26,613 bases of DNA from the IMG/VR virus record IMGVR_UViG_3300044301_005320, positions 1 through 26,613 of that record; one strand, written 5' to 3'. Both the position numbers and the translations under genes were made by a program. The notes beneath the pieces were generated by a model. That model was not told the origin of the DNA. It made no database searches and worked only from the letters and a program-made list of their open reading frames with translations. The DNA is from a virus. Below, in pieces: positions 1-23,547 of the stretch (position 1 is its first letter; the number at the start of each line of letters is the position of its first letter).

Positions 1-203
1 GAAGAACACTCGTAGTTCTCTGCTGACTCTCTAGCCCACTTGGTGCAAGGGTGATTGTAGAATGCCCTCTTGTATGGTGCATCACCATTAGGAAACACAG
101 CACAGAGCATCTGCGCTGACTCCAAGATCATTTTGACAACGTGTTTGTCGCACAATTGTTGTGCGGCGGTCTTAGGGTTGGTATCTACTGCAAATATATT
201 CAT
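1..203 (-). CDS. Conserved phage protein, N-terminal part (runs off the window)
   Basis: The reading frame starts at ATG 201-203 and runs leftwards off the window edge, giving about 67 residues that begin MNIFAVDTNPKTAAQQLCDK and continue with HVVKMILESAQMLC. I recognise this as the start of a family common in marine T4-like and other aquatic phages, with a hallmark 'DKHVVKM..E.AQ' helix followed by an 'NHP...W' stretch (seen here as YNHPCTKWA). I know of no established biochemical role and assign none. The start lies 5 bases after the encoded CCA of the upstream tRNA on the same strand, so tRNA and gene probably share a transcript. No Shine-Dalgarno site is visible because the tRNA occupies that space. 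The protein is incomplete here, so length cannot be compared. Confidence 0.7.
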   Translation of the reverse strand, partial: MNIFAVDTNPKTAAQQLCDKHVVKMILESAQMLCAVFPNGDAPYKRAFYNHPCTKWARESAENYECS

Positions 204-208
204 ACTTT

Positions 209-285
209 TGGTAGGTGCAGTGGGACTTGAACCCACACTGGACGGATTTTAAGTCCGTTGTCTCTGCCAATTGGACTATGCACCC
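209..285 (-). tRNA. tRNA-Leu (anticodon UAA), unusually short variable loop
   Basis: Reading leftwards from 285, the sequence folds into a full cloverleaf. The acceptor stem GGGTGCA pairs with TGCACCT, with a G-U at the first pair. U8-A9 follow, then a D-arm with a 3-bp stem GTC/GAC and an 11-nt loop containing GG. The anticodon stem ACGGA/TCCGT closes the loop CTTAAAA, and a T-arm GTGGG/CCCAC closes TTCAAGT. Discriminator A and an encoded CCA end the gene. The anticodon UAA (plus-strand 249-251) reads UUA/UUG leucine codons. The D-arm layout and A73 match bacterial tRNA-Leu. Leucine tRNAs normally carry a long variable arm, whereas only five bases (CCAGT) separate the anticodon and T stems here. 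Leucine identity is inferred from the anticodon. The gene lies between two minus-strand protein genes. Confidence 0.9.
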
Positions 286-291
286 GTCTTT

Positions 292-729
292 TTATTTATC
301 AACTTTGTCGTAATGAAAACCATCATTACCGTTGCGAGCGATAATGTCAATACGCTTTTGACCTTCAAGCTCTTGTTCTTCAGTCAACAATTTGGTATTT
401 TCTGGTTCGATCTGGGATCTTTCCTCCAGAAGCATGGCTTTAGCCAAGATAGCATAGTTAACTATATCATCACAAGCATCTTCTACAGTTTCATTGGGGA
501 CAGATAGTTCACTGTCATTGGTGAACGAATAGATTCTTTTTATTTTGTCGATTACGCGGAGAAGCAAGCCCTGCACGGGGTGAATGTCCAGTATTTTAGA
601 TGCATTAAAATTAGCGAAGGGATCGGTAGCATTTCTACCACCAGTGTAGTCGCTGTTTTTCTTTTTCATGATTGCCCTGCAAGCCTTACAGGTATCATCG
701 TGGAGTTGGAGTAGTTCTTTAGTATTCAT
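292..729 (-). CDS. DUF1599 / nucleotide-modification-associated protein
   Basis: A 145-residue protein whose pattern matches the DUF1599 family ('nucleotide modification associated domain 1'). It shows KKKNSDYTGG near residue 24, then DPFANFNASK, a central RVIDKIKRI helix, and VEDACDDIVNYAILAKAM towards the end. The family is an all-helical phage group often found next to nucleotide-metabolism genes, and an enzymatic role on nucleotides is proposed rather than proven. The acidic E/D-rich helix before NYA is the kind of metal-binding feature seen in MazG/dUTPase-like all-alpha folds. The start ATG at 727-729 overlaps the stop of the upstream homing endonuclease gene by 4 bp, so translation is probably coupled. 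A MazG-like protein is encoded in the same operon (1384-1725), consistent with a nucleotide-pool role. Confidence 0.75.
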   Translation of the reverse strand: MNTKELLQLHDDTCKACRAIMKKKNSDYTGGRNATDPFANFNASKILDIHPVQGLLLRVIDKIKRIYSFTNDSELSVPNETVEDACDDIVNYAILAKAMLLEERSQIEPENTKLLTEEQELEGQKRIDIIARNGNDGFHYDKVDK

Positions 730-4207: not shown

Positions 4208-4810
4208 CTAATCAGGTTGAACTATGTAACTTTTATCTTTAATTCTTTGCCACATTTGACGCTCTGACCATTCATTATGGAGTCTTTCTTGGGTAAAATT
4301 TAACCACCTTTCGTGAGAATCTTTTAAGGCTGAATCAGCCTTTTGTTTACCTACCCACTTGCCGACTTCTGTTTCAGAGTTTCTGTCAATTTTGTATATC
4401 TTAAAGAATTCCCTAAAAATTTTGAGATGTTCTGGCTCAATATCAGCTAATGTTTTATATTTTTCTTTTGGTGACCAGTCTGGAACTGCTATGAGCTTAT
4501 TATCAATCTTGCCGCCATCTACAAACCCAAGAACACCTAGCGCCCTACAGGAAACTAGGACTCCTCTATCAATAGGGTCATGGTTAAATACCAATACATC
4601 TAAAGGATCATCATCAAGTGCAATAGTCTGTGGAATAAAACCGTAATTAATAGGATATTGGAGAGATGAAACTAGACACCTATCTAATTTAAATATATTT
4701 AAATTCTCATCATACTCATATTTTGTATTAGTCCCTTTAGGAATCTCAATAATACAATTTACATGTTCATAATCATCTGATGTGATAGGTATGTCATTTA
4801 CAAGATTCAT
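4208..4810 (-). CDS. ppa: Inorganic pyrophosphatase (family I)
   Basis: A 200-residue soluble enzyme that hydrolyses pyrophosphate to two phosphates and so pulls DNA and RNA synthesis forward. Essentially every active-site position of family I enzymes can be found at the spacing of the E. coli protein: E22 and K30/E32, R44, Y56 (YPINYGFIP), the DDDPLDVLV loop with D66, D68 and D71, D98 and D103 in VDGGKIDNKLIAVP, and K105. GKWVGKQKA supplies the later Trp/Lys region. It is longer than the E. coli enzyme (175) because of a C-terminal extension rich in Trp and charged residues. The ATG overlaps the stop of the small basic protein gene as ATGA. Pyrophosphatases are uncommon in phages. Here it sits with nucleotide-pool genes such as dCMP deaminase and MazG-like protein. 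Confidence 0.92.
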   Translation of the reverse strand: MNLVNDIPITSDDYEHVNCIIEIPKGTNTKYEYDENLNIFKLDRCLVSSLQYPINYGFIPQTIALDDDPLDVLVFNHDPIDRGVLVSCRALGVLGFVDGGKIDNKLIAVPDWSPKEKYKTLADIEPEHLKIFREFFKIYKIDRNSETEVGKWVGKQKADSALKDSHERWLNFTQERLHNEWSERQMWQRIKDKSYIVQPD

Positions 4811-6888: not shown

Positions 6889-7578
6889 TCAGAATTTGTA
6901 GTTAAACCCTGCACCTACGACCCAATCGTTGTCGAGAGAGTAGGCAGATCCATCTACATCATTGTGGTTATAAGAAACTTTTGCACCTACAGAAAGGTTG
7001 TTACCGAAATCATAATCGGCAGAAACTCCAACCTCTACTGCGTTGTAATCGTTAGCGATATTTGCGGAAACAAATGGACTAACAGTGAGATTATCTACTG
7101 GAGTAGCAAAATCCCGCGAAACAGTAATTTCAACTCCATAGGAAGCATCAGTTCCAAGCTCATGCCAGAAACTAGCAGTCAAATCTGCCCATTCATGAGA
7201 ATAGGTAAGACCTAGACCAGCTTCCTCCCAGCCACCATAAGAGGATTCAATTTGCTGGAGATAAATCTCTGCGTCAATTGATTGGCCCAGAATGGTTACT
7301 GGACGCGCCCAAGAAATCGAAAGATCAGTGTCAGTGCCTCCGTCAGCATCGTAAATATCAACGCCGACCGAAGCAACCCCACCTTCAAACGAAGTGCCGA
7401 GAAGCACAGAGTAACCCAGAGAATCCTCCCTGACAGCTAAACCTCCACTAGTGGAAAGATTGCTGTAAGAAACGCTAGCGTCCACAGAAATGTTTTCTGC
7501 GAGATCTTCAGCGTTAACACCCGCGCTACCAATGGCAACGCCCAACATTGTTACAAGACTAAACAGTAATGTCTTCAT
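6889..7578 (-). CDS. Outer-membrane beta-barrel protein
   Basis: A 229-residue protein with a signal peptide (MKTLLFSLVTMLGVAIGSAG, then VNA|ED as likely cleavage). The rest is alternating hydrophobic/polar strands ending in the outer-membrane sorting signature GAGFNYKF with C-terminal Phe. Strand-like stretches such as SVDASVSYSN, VASVGVDIYDAD, AGLGLTYSHEW and SVGAKVSYNHN suggest an eight- to ten-strand barrel. It should be inserted into the host outer membrane by the BAM machinery. The barrel resembles bacterial outer-membrane proteins of about this size, and it may have been taken from a host. The gene is a self-contained unit with its own strong promoter (7587-7614) and terminator (6833-6863), typical of genes expressed apart from the lytic cascade. 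Possible roles are receptor masking or change of surface permeability; neither is shown. Confidence 0.8.
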   Translation of the reverse strand: MKTLLFSLVTMLGVAIGSAGVNAEDLAENISVDASVSYSNLSTSGGLAVREDSLGYSVLLGTSFEGGVASVGVDIYDADGGTDTDLSISWARPVTILGQSIDAEIYLQQIESSYGGWEEAGLGLTYSHEWADLTASFWHELGTDASYGVEITVSRDFATPVDNLTVSPFVSANIANDYNAVEVGVSADYDFGNNLSVGAKVSYNHNDVDGSAYSLDNDWVVGAGFNYKF

Positions 7579-18432: not shown

Positions 18433-21400
18433 ATGGCTACTAACCCCGCACCAACAGGACTAAACGAATTAGCTAGAACTCCAAGTGGCTCCTACACTTG
18501 GACTGTTAGTGGAAACATTAATATTACTGGAGCCACTGGAGCAGGGGGCTACCTTAGAAATGACGCAGTTAATCTAGGTATTACAGGAATTGAGTTGTTT
18601 ATGGTTGCGGGTTTAACGGGGGCTGCAATTCCCACTGGAATAACTACCCCAGCCTCAAATCATTACTACGCTACAGCATCAAAGGATTGGGGAGCTGGGG
18701 TTTGGGGACCAAGAGGAAATATTGATTATACTGCCGCAGTCGGTGGTTCCGATAGTCCACTACTACCTGACACGGAATATAGATATGCTTTATGCTTTAA
18801 AACTTTGGGTGGTATTCAGGTGCTTTCAGGAAAGGCTAGGGATGGAACATCGGCCAGTGATCCTTTCTGTGAGTTTGTGTCTACCACTGTTGCTGAGTGG
18901 GATTTTGTTTCAGAATATACTATTGATCAAGATGACCTCACAACAACTGGTGAGGGAAGTGGGATTACCCATATGCCTGGAGGCTCAGTTGTAGTTAACA
19001 GTGTTTTTGTTGATAATCAGGGAAATCAAGCAGGAACCGCTGGTGCTTTTGCTGCTAGCCCAAGTCTTAGTGGTAATACTGTCAACCTGCGAGACAAAAA
19101 CAGGGAGATGGTTTATTCGGGATATAAAGAAAACCACAATAGTCCTGTTTTAGCTATTCCACAAGAAGATTTGGTTGCATATTTAGGATCACCCACTCCA
19201 AACTTTTGTGTCGAGCAAGTAGTAACAGATATAAAAAGCGGACAAAACGTGTCCTTTATGGATATCCGTGGAAATTATCCAAGGACGGTAAAAATCTGGA
19301 CAGAGGATAAAAATGGAACCAAGTTAAACGAAAGCTATAGAAACTTCGAACTCTTAGACACGGGAAACATTTCAAATGCAACCTATAGAGAAGACGCTAT
19401 AAAATTTCAAAATAACCAAGTAATAAGCGATGTCGCACACTCGGGAGGTATTATTTTAACTTTTGCTTTCGAGCCTGATCAAACAGTGGTAACTAAAAGA
19501 GAAATAAATTTATTTACAGGTGATTCGGCTGAATCGGTTAATACTGATTATACTTCATGGGCAGGAACTGTGCCTCTTAATCAAACTGAAGTAGGACAAA
19601 CTGTTAGGCTTACATCTACAGATGGATACCCCGAAGAGACAGATATATATTTTAAAGCTATAGTGGGTGGCTCCATTGGTTACTCTGAAGAAATATTTCA
19701 ATTTGGACCATGTAAGATAGCTACCATTACTGGAGCAGAAAATTTGGACATGCATACTGTTGGAAACCAAACGCTTCAGGGTAGCCTTCTAATTAAAGAC
19801 CCAGCCGATCCAACAGAGTCTACTTACGGTTTAAAAGTAACCGCCCACGACAGCGATCTTAAATTAGCAACCACTGATGGATATTCGATTGAATCGACAA
19901 CAAGATCCAGAATATCCTCTATTGATAGTGAAGGTCATTCGACAGCGACAGCCCTCTTAGGTGGGTCAGGAAATCTCATAACAGGAAACTATAATGTAAT
20001 TGCGGGAGGAGCAACAGCAACAATATCAGGGGGAGATTATTGCTTTATTGGGGGAGGCTCTGGTGTTGATATCACAGGAAGTAATTATTCCTCAAGTGTT
20101 GGGGGGTATAATAATGATGTTAAAAAAAGCGACTATTCTGTTATAGCGGGGGGGTATAGTAATCAAGTAAATGATAATTGCAATACTTCTATAATTGGAG
20201 GCGGTTATACGAACCAAATTAGCGGAACTAGTAATGCTTGTATTATAGCAGGAGGATACGGAAATAAGATTTCAGGAGCTGATGGATCAGCAATTGGTGG
20301 AGGATCAAATAATACAATCCAGAATGCTAGTGTAGCCTTCATTGGCGCAGGAGGAACTAATGTTATAGAAAAAGGTTCTACATACTCCCTAATAGCAGGT
20401 GGGTTAGCACATAAAGTTTCAGGAACAAATTCTGCCATATTGGGAGGTTCATATGCTGCCGTAAGTGGTGATTATTGTATAGCGGGTGGCCGAAAAGCTC
20501 ACATTCCTAAAGATGTAGATGGTGCTCTAGTTTTAGCAGACGGTCAAGATCGCAGCCATATATCTAGCGGAGATAACACCGCCCTTCTTGATTATGCTGC
20601 GGGAACTTACGTTACTTCTACTGGCTTCTTTAATCATCTTCATGTAAGTGGAGTTCCTGTGGGAACTGGTGGGGGAGGAGGAACCCAGACACTACAAAGT
20701 GTCTGTGATAACGGTAGCACAACCACAACATCTGTTACTATCGGTGATGATCTAATCGTAAATACTGATACTTTGTTAGTTGATGTTTCTAATGACAATG
20801 TGGGTATTGGAACACAAGCTAACGACAATTTTGATTTACAAATTTATAGTGCAGGTGCTGCTGCTAATGCTAGGGGCGCTAATTTAAGTTTGGTGACCAT
20901 TAATAATAATGAAACAGGATCAAAAATAAGATTTACTGAAAGCACTTCAAATTTCCAAGGGGCTTACTTGCACTATGATGGAAACTCAAATGGATTTAAC
21001 ATTGGTGTGCATGAAAACGCTAATACTACTTTATCAGACGATATAGATGTTATATCAATTGATAGAGCAAGCGCTAAACTATCAGTGGCAGGAGATCTTT
21101 CTGGCTCTGCTAGCTTCTTAGGAACGGGCATTGGAAATAGAATCACAAACAACCATGTCCCTTATTTACTATCGGGAGACGTAACAATCTCTGAATTAGG
21201 ACTTGGAACTGCCGCGACAAAGGATGTAGGGATTAGTAATAACAACGTTATACAAGCAAACAGCACACTTGTTGATAATGATTTCTTAAGAATAGATGGC
21301 ACACAAGTAGAGGGAAGATCGGCATCAGAAGTCCTGTCGGATATTGGGGGACAAGCTTCACTTACGTTTGGTATATCAAATACAAACGCAGTAAAGATTG

Positions 21401-23547
21401 ACAGCGCAGACGTTGCTGATGACGAATATGCGAGATTTACATCTGACGGTTTAGAAAGCAGGTCTACTTCAGAAGTGCTTTCGGATATCGGAGCGCAAGC
21501 TTCGCTTACCTTTGGTATATCAAATACCAATGCAGTCAAAATAGATAGCGCGTCAGTAGCTGACGATGAATACGCTAGGTTTACAGCTAATGGTTTAGAA
21601 AGCCGCTCTACTTCTGAGGTCAAAAGCGATATAGGTTTAAGTAGTAATGATTCTCCCACTTTTAATGGGTTAAAATCAACGGGCGCAGCTGGTATATCGG
21701 GTGGAGCTAACTTTATTGGGACTGGAATAGGTAACAGGATCACAGCCGAAAACGGTAAAGTTTATCTTATTTCTGGAGATGTCACTACATCTGAACTAGG
21801 GCTTGGCACTGCTGCTACAAAGGACGTAGGTATTAGCAATAATAATGTCATCCAAGCAAACAGCACACTTGTTGATAACGATTTTCTCCGCATAGACGGA
21901 ACTCAAGTAGAAGGTAGATCGGCATCAGAAGTTCTTTCAGACATTGGAGGACAGGCTTCACTTACCTTCGGAATAGCAAACACAAACGCTGTTAAAATTG
22001 ACAGCGCAGACGTTGCTGACGATGAATACGCACGGTTTACTGCTGACGGTTTAGAGAGCCGTTCAACATCTGAGGTTCTTAGTGACATCGGGGCGCAAGC
22101 CTCGCTGACCTTCGGGATCTCAAACACGAATGCTGTAAAGATCGACAGCGCTTCAGTAGCAGATGATGAATACGCAAGATTTACCGCTAACGGCTTAGAG
22201 AGTAGATCTACTTCAGAAGTAAAAAGTGATATAGGTTTGTCATCAAATGATTCTCCAACTTTTAATGGATTAAAATCCACGGGTGCAGCAGGAATTTCGG
22301 GAGGAGCAAACTTTATTGGAACTGGGGTAGGCAACAGGATTACAACAGAGAACGGAAAAGTTTATTTAGTATCAGGTGACGCACAAGGCCCACTGACGTT
22401 TGGTATTTCAGACACGAACGCTGTTAAAATCGACAGCGCGACCGTAGCCGATAACGAATACGCTAGATTTACTGCTGATGGATTAGAGAGTCGCTCTACT
22501 TCTGAAGTTTTGTCTGACATTGGAGGGGTTGCTGATGGAGGCTCTCCGACTTTCGATAGTATCTATCTTCAAAACACAATTTATCATGATGGAGATACAG
22601 ACACTCGTATAGATGTTAGCGCGGATACAATCCAACTTGCTACAGCAGGAACTACAGCACTTACAGTAGCTTCAAACAGCAATGTCGGTATAGGAACAGC
22701 AACTCCCAACGCTGCATATAAACTCCATACGCAGGGACTTTCCTATGCAACAGGAATGGTTGTAGGAGGCGGTATCGCAGGGCAAAGCCCTTCTCAAAAC
22801 GGATTAATAGTCGAAGGAAAGGCGGCAGTGGGTTATTATTCAACCAATAGCACACTGGGAGTATATGGGAACGCTAGTGTGGGAACATCTTACATAGGCA
22901 GTGCCGCGCCTTCTAATGGATTAATAGTGCAGGGAAGCGTGGGTATAGGAACAGCCTCTCCCAACGCTGCATACGAACTCCATACGCATGGACTTAGCTA
23001 TGCAACAGGTGCGGTTATAGGAGGTAGTTACGCAGGGCAAAGCCCTCCTGAAAACGGATTAGCCATAGAGGGGAATACAGCAATAGGATATTATACAACC
23101 AGTAATAACTTAGGGATATATGGGAGCGCTAGCGTGGGGACATCTTATATAAGCACCTCCGCGCCTTCTAATGGTCTAATAGTTCAAGGAAATGTTGGGG
23201 TTGGAACTCAATCGCCAGCAACTGCCCTTGAGGTCAATGGGGCAATAAAAGGTGGAGTAAATGTTTCCGATAAAAGTGCTGATTTTACTTTAGGATCAAG
23301 TGATAATGGAAACTTTGTTAACGGGACATCTGCTTCATTCGATCAAATATCAATCTCTAGTGATTTAGGTTCAAACTTTAACTGTTCTGTAATGCATCCA
23401 ACATCAGATGTAGAAATTACTGGCTCCAGTAGTATGATTATTAATGGCGTGACAAATGGCATTGTGACTTTAGCATCTGGATATCAACCAGCTTCTATAG
23501 TTAGAATTGCATCCAACAGTTATGCAGTATTTGGTAATTTATTATGA
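18433..23547 (+). CDS. Giant repeat-containing tail fibre / adhesin
   Basis: A 1704-residue fibre directly downstream of gene J. Parts in order: an N-terminal region with FN3-like strands (about 1-490, probably the tail attachment side); a beta-roll of YadA-head type (about 508-685), with many short turns of the form IAGGYSNQ, IIGGGYTN, AIGGGSNN; then a linker with VGIGTQAND. Two tandem 200-residue units follow (from about 921), each with two 48-residue sub-repeats around TNAVKIDSA, plus a third partial unit. Next come two and a half 85-residue VGIGTA.PNAAY.LHT units (from about 1418). The C-terminal domain (about 1620-1704) is a small beta-sandwich often found at fibre ends. No S74 chaperone-protease domain is present although VGIGT repeats usually come with one. 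The stop overlaps the next ATG as ATGA. Confidence 0.85.
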   Translation: MATNPAPTGLNELARTPSGSYTWTVSGNINITGATGAGGYLRNDAVNLGITGIELFMVAGLTGAAIPTGITTPASNHYYATASKDWGAGVWGPRGNIDYTAAVGGSDSPLLPDTEYRYALCFKTLGGIQVLSGKARDGTSASDPFCEFVSTTVAEWDFVSEYTIDQDDLTTTGEGSGITHMPGGSVVVNSVFVDNQGNQAGTAGAFAASPSLSGNTVNLRDKNREMVYSGYKENHNSPVLAIPQEDLVAYLGSPTPNFCVEQVVTDIKSGQNVSFMDIRGNYPRTVKIWTEDKNGTKLNESYRNFELLDTGNISNATYREDAIKFQNNQVISDVAHSGGIILTFAFEPDQTVVTKREINLFTGDSAESVNTDYTSWAGTVPLNQTEVGQTVRLTSTDGYPEETDIYFKAIVGGSIGYSEEIFQFGPCKIATITGAENLDMHTVGNQTLQGSLLIKDPADPTESTYGLKVTAHDSDLKLATTDGYSIESTTRSRISSIDSEGHSTATALLGGSGNLITGNYNVIAGGATATISGGDYCFIGGGSGVDITGSNYSSSVGGYNNDVKKSDYSVIAGGYSNQVNDNCNTSIIGGGYTNQISGTSNACIIAGGYGNKISGADGSAIGGGSNNTIQNASVAFIGAGGTNVIEKGSTYSLIAGGLAHKVSGTNSAILGGSYAAVSGDYCIAGGRKAHIPKDVDGALVLADGQDRSHISSGDNTALLDYAAGTYVTSTGFFNHLHVSGVPVGTGGGGGTQTLQSVCDNGSTTTTSVTIGDDLIVNTDTLLVDVSNDNVGIGTQANDNFDLQIYSAGAAANARGANLSLVTINNNETGSKIRFTESTSNFQGAYLHYDGNSNGFNIGVHENANTTLSDDIDVISIDRASAKLSVAGDLSGSASFLGTGIGNRITNNHVPYLLSGDVTISELGLGTAATKDVGISNNNVIQANSTLVDNDFLRIDGTQVEGRSASEVLSDIGGQASLTFGISNTNAVKIDSADVADDEYARFTSDGLESRSTSEVLSDIGAQASLTFGISNTNAVKIDSASVADDEYARFTANGLESRSTSEVKSDIGLSSNDSPTFNGLKSTGAAGISGGANFIGTGIGNRITAENGKVYLISGDVTTSELGLGTAATKDVGISNNNVIQANSTLVDNDFLRIDGTQVEGRSASEVLSDIGGQASLTFGIANTNAVKIDSADVADDEYARFTADGLESRSTSEVLSDIGAQASLTFGISNTNAVKIDSASVADDEYARFTANGLESRSTSEVKSDIGLSSNDSPTFNGLKSTGAAGISGGANFIGTGVGNRITTENGKVYLVSGDAQGPLTFGISDTNAVKIDSATVADNEYARFTADGLESRSTSEVLSDIGGVADGGSPTFDSIYLQNTIYHDGDTDTRIDVSADTIQLATAGTTALTVASNSNVGIGTATPNAAYKLHTQGLSYATGMVVGGGIAGQSPSQNGLIVEGKAAVGYYSTNSTLGVYGNASVGTSYIGSAAPSNGLIVQGSVGIGTASPNAAYELHTHGLSYATGAVIGGSYAGQSPPENGLAIEGNTAIGYYTTSNNLGIYGSASVGTSYISTSAPSNGLIVQGNVGVGTQSPATALEVNGAIKGGVNVSDKSADFTLGSSDNGNFVNGTSASFDQISISSDLGSNFNCSVMHPTSDVEITGSSSMIINGVTNGIVTLASGYQPASIVRIASNSYAVFGNLL
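19955..20500 (+). repeat. YadA-head-like beta-roll repeats in the fibre gene
   Basis: About a dozen degenerate protein repeats of 13-17 residues built on (I/S)xxGGxxNxISG, e.g. VIAGGYSNQV, SIIGGGYTNQISG, IIAGGYGNKISG and AIGGGSNNTI. The Gly-Gly turns and alternating Ile/Ser indicate a left-handed parallel beta-roll, a trimeric adhesin fold. At DNA level the repeats are much less alike. Confidence 0.7.
21193..21792 (+). repeat. Fibre tandem repeat, unit A (600 bp)
   Basis: First of two adjoining units of exactly 600 bp (200 codons), beginning ELGLGTAATKDVGISNN. It contains two 144-bp sub-repeats starting at 21352 and 21496 (QASLTFGIS and following). Compared with unit B, only two residues differ over the first roughly 170, but 12 of the first 20 codons differ, all silently. 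Confidence 0.9.
21793..22392 (+). repeat. Fibre tandem repeat, unit B (600 bp), plus partial third copy to about 22530
   Basis: Second unit, exactly 600 bp after unit A, with sub-repeats at 21952 and 22096. It uses different codons for the same protein, including CGC and CGG for Arg where unit A uses AGA. From about 22318 a third, shorter copy begins (TGVGNRIT, then PLTFGISDTNAVKIDSA) and ends near 22530. Confidence 0.9.
22684..23193 (+). repeat. Two 255-bp VGIGT repeats in the fibre gene
   Basis: Units at 22684-22938 and 22939-23193, 85 codons each, followed by a truncated third start (VGVGTQSPATALEVNG) at 23194. Unlike the 600-bp repeats, these share long stretches of identical DNA while differing more in protein, so the two arrays have different histories. 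Confidence 0.85.

Follow-up and report, generated by a model that had tools for sequence, protein, structure and literature searches.

A single transfer RNA gene, predicted to specify a tRNA-Leu(UAA) without the long variable arm, lies near one end of a viral DNA of 26,613 nucleotides (IMG/VR record IMGVR_UViG_3300044301_005320, positions 1 to 26,613; the whole stretch is called the window here). It is the only tRNA detected in the window by ARAGORN, runs on the minus strand (285..209), comprises 77 bases with an encoded CCA, and scores 60.7 bits with the Rfam tRNA model RF00005, for which the gathering score is 29. In the ARAGORN fold, the acceptor stem has 7 bp, including a G1-U72 wobble, and the D arm (260..276) has a 3-bp stem (GTC/GAC) and an 11-nt loop, with A14, A15, G18 G19, and A20a. 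The anticodon TAA (249..251) reads UUA, and probably UUG via wobble. A variable loop of 5 nt, CCAGT (237..241), the final base of which is U48, replaces the long arm, and the sequence ends with discriminator A73 and the encoded CCA (209..212). With a 5-nt loop, this is not a class II (type II) bacterial tRNA-Leu by its variable arm, and the short loop and A73 also set it apart from tRNA-Ser, which has a long arm and G73. A sequence-only reading had given the same coordinates and description, both of which are correct, and had suggested a covariance-model scan, which the RF00005 score now provides; the minus strand was left unstated.

Relatives were found via a tail gene of the window, which gave 10 loci, mostly short fragments apart from the tRNA-bearing contigs. 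Two of the 10 carry the tRNA. One (contig G001, locus L250) is near-identical to the window and has an identical tRNA, while the other (G005, locus L251) is diverged, with a tail protein 53% identical and a tRNA 89% identical to that of the window. The gene is neither a chance match nor an assembly error, since both contigs carry it, in G005 at the same place. In the window, the adjoining upstream gene (292..729, minus strand; phrog_1485, with a weak DUF1599 match) stops 6 bases before the tRNA starts, on the same strand, and in G005 the tRNA begins straight after the stop codon of this same gene. On the other side, the window holds the start of a downstream gene (1..202, minus strand) that is complete in G001 (protein MNIFAVDTNPK...). 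Between the window and G005, pairs 7-66 (A-U to G-C) and 50-64 (U-A to C-G) covary with pairing kept, and pair 4-69 shifts from U-A to U-G; pair-preserving changes of this kind are the pattern expected of selection on a working tRNA. Promoter and terminator scans around the tRNA in G001 gave promoters at chance level and nothing usable.

How common the short arm is among viruses was assessed with short defined as a variable loop of ≤6 nt; ARAGORN lengths of 7-9, possible parse errors, were left out of the short counts. Viral contigs scanned for a short variable loop downstream of a UAA anticodon loop gave at least 120 loci, and among the 120 matches listed, 95 held an ARAGORN tRNA-Leu(UAA) whose loop was ≤6 nt. 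A leucine-blind sample of 229 viral loci was picked by tRNA-Asn and tRNA-Met patterns, with identical tRNAs merged and relatives kept, so that the loci are independent only roughly. Among its 94 unique tRNA-Leu genes, the loop was ≤6 nt in 22, 7-9 in 6, and ≥10 in 66, and short forms occurred with anticodons UAA (5/32), CAA (6/18), and UAG (9/34). Short forms of tRNA-Ser (0/72) and tRNA-Tyr (1/43) were absent or nearly so in the same loci (Fisher p 7e-8 for leucine against serine plus tyrosine). Loci picked for a short UAA tRNA showed the same pattern, their other leucine tRNAs being short in 24 of 33 cases, tRNA-Ser in none of 32, and tRNA-Tyr in none of 13. Because leucine tRNAs are often short in viral loci and those for serine and tyrosine almost never are, arm loss in viruses is specific to leucine. 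In the sole short tRNA-Tyr (anticodon GTA, locus L402, 10786-10857), the variable loop measures 5 nt, which may reflect either a parsing error or a genuine loss. The sequence-only reading had presented the short-looped tRNA-Leu as exceptional, a status it would lose if many phage tRNA-Leu genes shared the loop. Such genes are common, both in these viral loci and in the named phages described below, and the exceptional status falls.

Short and long leucine UAA tRNAs also differ outside the variable arm. C12-G23, C13, and A22 are typical of the short ones, with C12, C13, and A22 each present in 118 of 119 rows from genomes, whereas G12-C23 is found in the long ones, usually together with G13. 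The window tRNA has C12-G23, C13, and A22, and its variable loop, CCAGU, fits the NCAGU-like loop of the short (type I) tRNA-Leu(UAA) family. A FastTree reconstruction of 248 leucine UAA tRNAs stripped of the variable arm required 6 changes between short and long, against a mean of 50 after shuffling, rows with shifted parses having been dropped before the count; it rests on 63 columns, so its deep order is beyond resolution, and support values were left aside. The nearest 20 rows to the window tRNA are all short, and it groups with short tRNAs of viruses, close to some from cells. Judged by these sequence features, the window tRNA is a member of a short (type I) tRNA-Leu family common to phages and Actinomycetota. 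The earlier suggestion of a phage tRNA that had lost its variable arm thus holds for the short form itself and probably not for a recent loss in this phage. Separate losses from the long form look likely for the tRNAs of phages VspSw_1 and EscoHU1, the D arms of which differ from the window type, and for the viral rows with G12 (18/97).

The family also has cellular members. Bacterial genomes were scanned with a stricter short-loop pattern, giving at least 118 loci, and among the matches listed, 116 of 118 held an ARAGORN UAA tRNA whose loop was ≤6 nt and 108 of 118 held a single tRNA; by the titles of 80 of the 118 records, these were mostly Actinomycetota. Mycolicibacterium sediminis (G011, NZ_AP022588.1) has 46 tRNAs on its complete chromosome; the sole tRNA-Leu(UAA) and the sole tRNA-Leu(CAA) have 5-nt loops (L573, L598), and the other three leucine tRNAs, which are those for CUN codons (anticodons GAG, CAG, TAG), are long, with loops of 15-18. 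Therefore, UUA and UUG in this organism rely on short tRNAs. A short-plus-long pattern matched 110 of 149 Actinomycetota genomes, and in 29 the match was short and the only one in its genome; short matches that lacked a matching anticodon stem were excluded by eye (e.g., G036, G050, G059, G069, G073, G074). Many other Actinomycetota genomes among the matches listed have the long form. In Bacteroidota, 87 of 99 genomes matched, and the matches listed included one clear short leucine form (G016:C150), whose genome also has a long form.

Whether such a tRNA would be charged with leucine depends on what leucyl-tRNA synthetase (LeuRS) recognises. According to passages of PMC9976931, E. coli LeuRS requires A73, A15-U48, G18G19, and A20a; for A. 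aeolicus, U8-A14 is a further element; E. coli tRNA-Leu variants without the long arm and the anticodon arm remain active; and sequence-specific reading of the long arm by LeuRS is confined to Archaea. SerRS, as described in the source excerpts, recognises the long arm together with G73. Arm loss would be tolerated for leucine because bacterial LeuRS is independent of the arm and SerRS dependent on it. The window tRNA has every one of the listed LeuRS determinants (A73, U8, A14, A15-U48, GG18-19, and A20a). Among short UAA tRNAs, A15-U48 is found in 77/95 viral and 100/103 genomic examples and A20a in 86/95 and 102/103, respectively, while A20a is rare elsewhere (Lys 4/84, Arg 15/167). Isotype was also assessed with a naive Bayes classifier, for which long tRNA-Leu and every other isotype served as training data, the anticodon and variable arm being excluded. 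The classifier is weak (cross-validated accuracy 1486/1868 with all features), but it placed the window tRNA best as leucine in 4 of 4 feature sets, and leucine led widely on the identity-centred set (Leu -3.3, Tyr -13.5). On that set, 72/95 viral and 100/103 genomic short UAA tRNAs also scored as leucine.

The most probable interpretation, at roughly 0.88, is that the gene specifies a leucine-charged decoding tRNA of the type I tRNA-Leu family of phages and actinobacteria, reading UUA. The phage would transcribe the tRNA between two same-strand genes, host enzymes would process the transcript, and a bacterial LeuRS would charge it via A73 and the core formed by the D and T loops (U8-A14, A15-U48, G18G19, A20a), with no need of the arm. 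The charged tRNA would then decode UUA, the commonest leucine codon of the phage (200 of 571, or 35%, in 25 chosen open reading frames of the window), presumably to the benefit of the phage. The sequence, in which all E. coli determinants are present, gives good support to the possibility raised earlier, of a phage tRNA-Leu that lacks the arm and would still be charged by LeuRS.

Several observations weigh against this interpretation. In the minimum-energy single-strand fold, the D loop and the variable region pair with each other (z -1.83), and the D arm is left unfavoured. With all 68 features, the window scores for leucine (-54.6), tyrosine (-57.1), and lysine (-57.4) leave only a modest margin, and short UAA tRNAs in general scored as leucine in just 44/95 viral and 74/103 genomic cases, the rest mostly as Tyr or Lys; a 30-feature core set gave 26/95 and 57/103, with Tyr next or ahead. 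The heavy use of UUA may merely follow from base composition, as the G+C content of the window is 39%. Finally, this tRNA would be ill suited to a host with a LeuRS of the archaeal type, by which the long arm is read according to the relevant passage of PMC9976931.

A broader proposal would make leucine, alone of the three type II amino acids, the owner of a mobile class I tRNA lineage that moved between phages and actinobacteria and freed UUR decoding from the long arm, maybe being kept in phages as an escape from arm-reading defences while still charged by LeuRS; as a whole, it is doubtful. The narrower claim, that decoding is the means and evasion the reason, the short arm being retained to resist host defence enzymes acting via the long variable arm, is unlikely. 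It draws on reports, seen as excerpts, that Septu cuts the variable loop of tRNA-Tyr (PMC13096335), that MenT3 favours the long arm of tRNA-Ser (PMC11541572), and that evasion of nucleases by phage tRNAs is possible (PMC10264068, PMC11555353). However, the arms of viral tRNA-Ser and tRNA-Tyr, which are the named targets, are the ones retained (0/72 and 1/43 short), the same short kind serves cells as their only UAA leucine tRNA, and the excerpts of the literature consulted name no enzyme that attacks the arm of tRNA-Leu.

Charging with another amino acid, and hence recoding of UUA, had also been raised by the sequence-only reading and is very unlikely. Some members of the short family do score best as Tyr or Lys, but the window tRNA scored best as leucine in every feature set, most clearly on the identity-centred one, so that the isotype test did not clearly name another amino acid, even with its modest margin on all features. 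The combination of A20a, A15-U48, and an unpaired 13-22 is a leucine pattern, and cells have a tRNA of the same kind as their only UAA leucine tRNA. Serine in particular is disfavoured, the window tRNA being without both the long arm and the G73 that SerRS reads in the passages cited above, and recoding would be drastic where UUA makes up 35% of leucine codons in the open reading frames counted. For a role other than decoding, the last of the earlier suggestions, no evidence was found. Phages frequently integrate at tRNA genes, and this one is solitary in the window, but a decayed or relic gene, or DNA retained as an integration site, is scarcely credible given the intact stems, the encoded CCA, the same placement with compensatory changes in the diverged relative G005, and the lack of an integrase among the examined proteins of the window or G001 (part of the open reading frames scanned).

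The window itself comes from a tailed phage, of which it is a fragment, and encodes a lambda-like tail tip protein and a tail assembly protein. The CHAP-domain endolysin and MipA-like outer-membrane domain that it also encodes point to a host that is probably Gram-negative. A BLAST search of the tRNA against E. coli genomes gave no match. The MipA-like sequence belongs to a beta-barrel-like protein (6889-7578) with a weak match (28.4 bits, cut-off 24.2), and is unusual phage cargo. An inorganic pyrophosphatase gene is clear at 4208-4810 (PF00719, 157 bits), and a tail-region protein of 1704 aa (18433-23547) contains several near-identical internal repeats (TNAVKIDSADVADDEYARFTADGLESRSTSEVLSDIG and similar). 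At 726-1241 lies an HNH endonuclease gene, and near-identical contig G001 has a different open reading frame there (L250, 2010-2580), as for a mobile homing gene.

For this phage, the consequences are small, as it adds one more short tRNA-Leu, but the wider pattern deserves a short note. The window tRNA is a genuine and conserved gene, unexceptional in a family overlooked by the reference texts consulted. Long arms are said to be universal outside animal mitochondria in a passage of PMC9976931, and leucine tRNAs in Actinomycetota and many phages contradict this universality in the genomes examined. In the viral sample, serine tRNAs and all but one of the tyrosine tRNAs retain their arms, as E. 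coli LeuRS biochemistry would predict. Annotation tools that expect a long leucine arm could mislabel short tRNA-Leu genes. A tRNA-Leu(TAG) with a short loop is mentioned for a mycobacterial tRNA cluster in part of PMC6582537, and a literature search, thin for subscription journals and older work, returned no title or abstract presenting short-armed tRNA-Leu as general in phages or actinobacteria; no claim of first description is made.

Among known systems, animal mitochondrial tRNA-Leu(UUR) resembles the window tRNA in having no long arm and in being leucylated via A73 and A14 (a passage of PMC9976931), but it is organellar and charged by a mitochondrial LeuRS, and it is likened here by description. 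The tRNA-Leu(UAA) of phage T4 has the same anticodon, but keeps a 15-nt variable arm, and in the 20-42 kb stretch of phage T5 the sole tRNA-Leu has the anticodon UAG and a 13-nt long arm. BLAST against phage records gave 71 that match the window tRNA, and 9 of 10 fetched matches carry an ARAGORN tRNA-Leu(UAA) with a 5-nt variable loop: Prochlorococcus phage P-SSM7, Pseudomonas phage ZC03, Escherichia phage EscoHU1, Vibrio phage VspSw_1, Rhodococcus phage Trina, Bacillus phage P59, Myxococcus phage Mx1, Lactobacillus phage Bacchae, and Acinetobacter phage vB_AciJM_313. Eight of these nine records label the short gene plainly as tRNA-Leu, and that of VspSw_1 is unannotated there. Mycobacterium phage CicholasNage matches at 62 of 77 bases, yet in the part of its sequence that was fetched ARAGORN gives no tRNA for Leu, Ser, or Tyr, and this phage was not counted. 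The cellular tRNA-Leu(UAA) of Actinomycetota, such as M. sediminis, differs from the window tRNA in its acceptor stem, in some cases in having no encoded CCA, and in being a chromosomal host gene, but it shares the 5-nt variable loop, the TAGYCC start of the D arm, A14, A15-U48, A20a, A73, and the CTTAAAA anticodon loop, with up to 84% identity.
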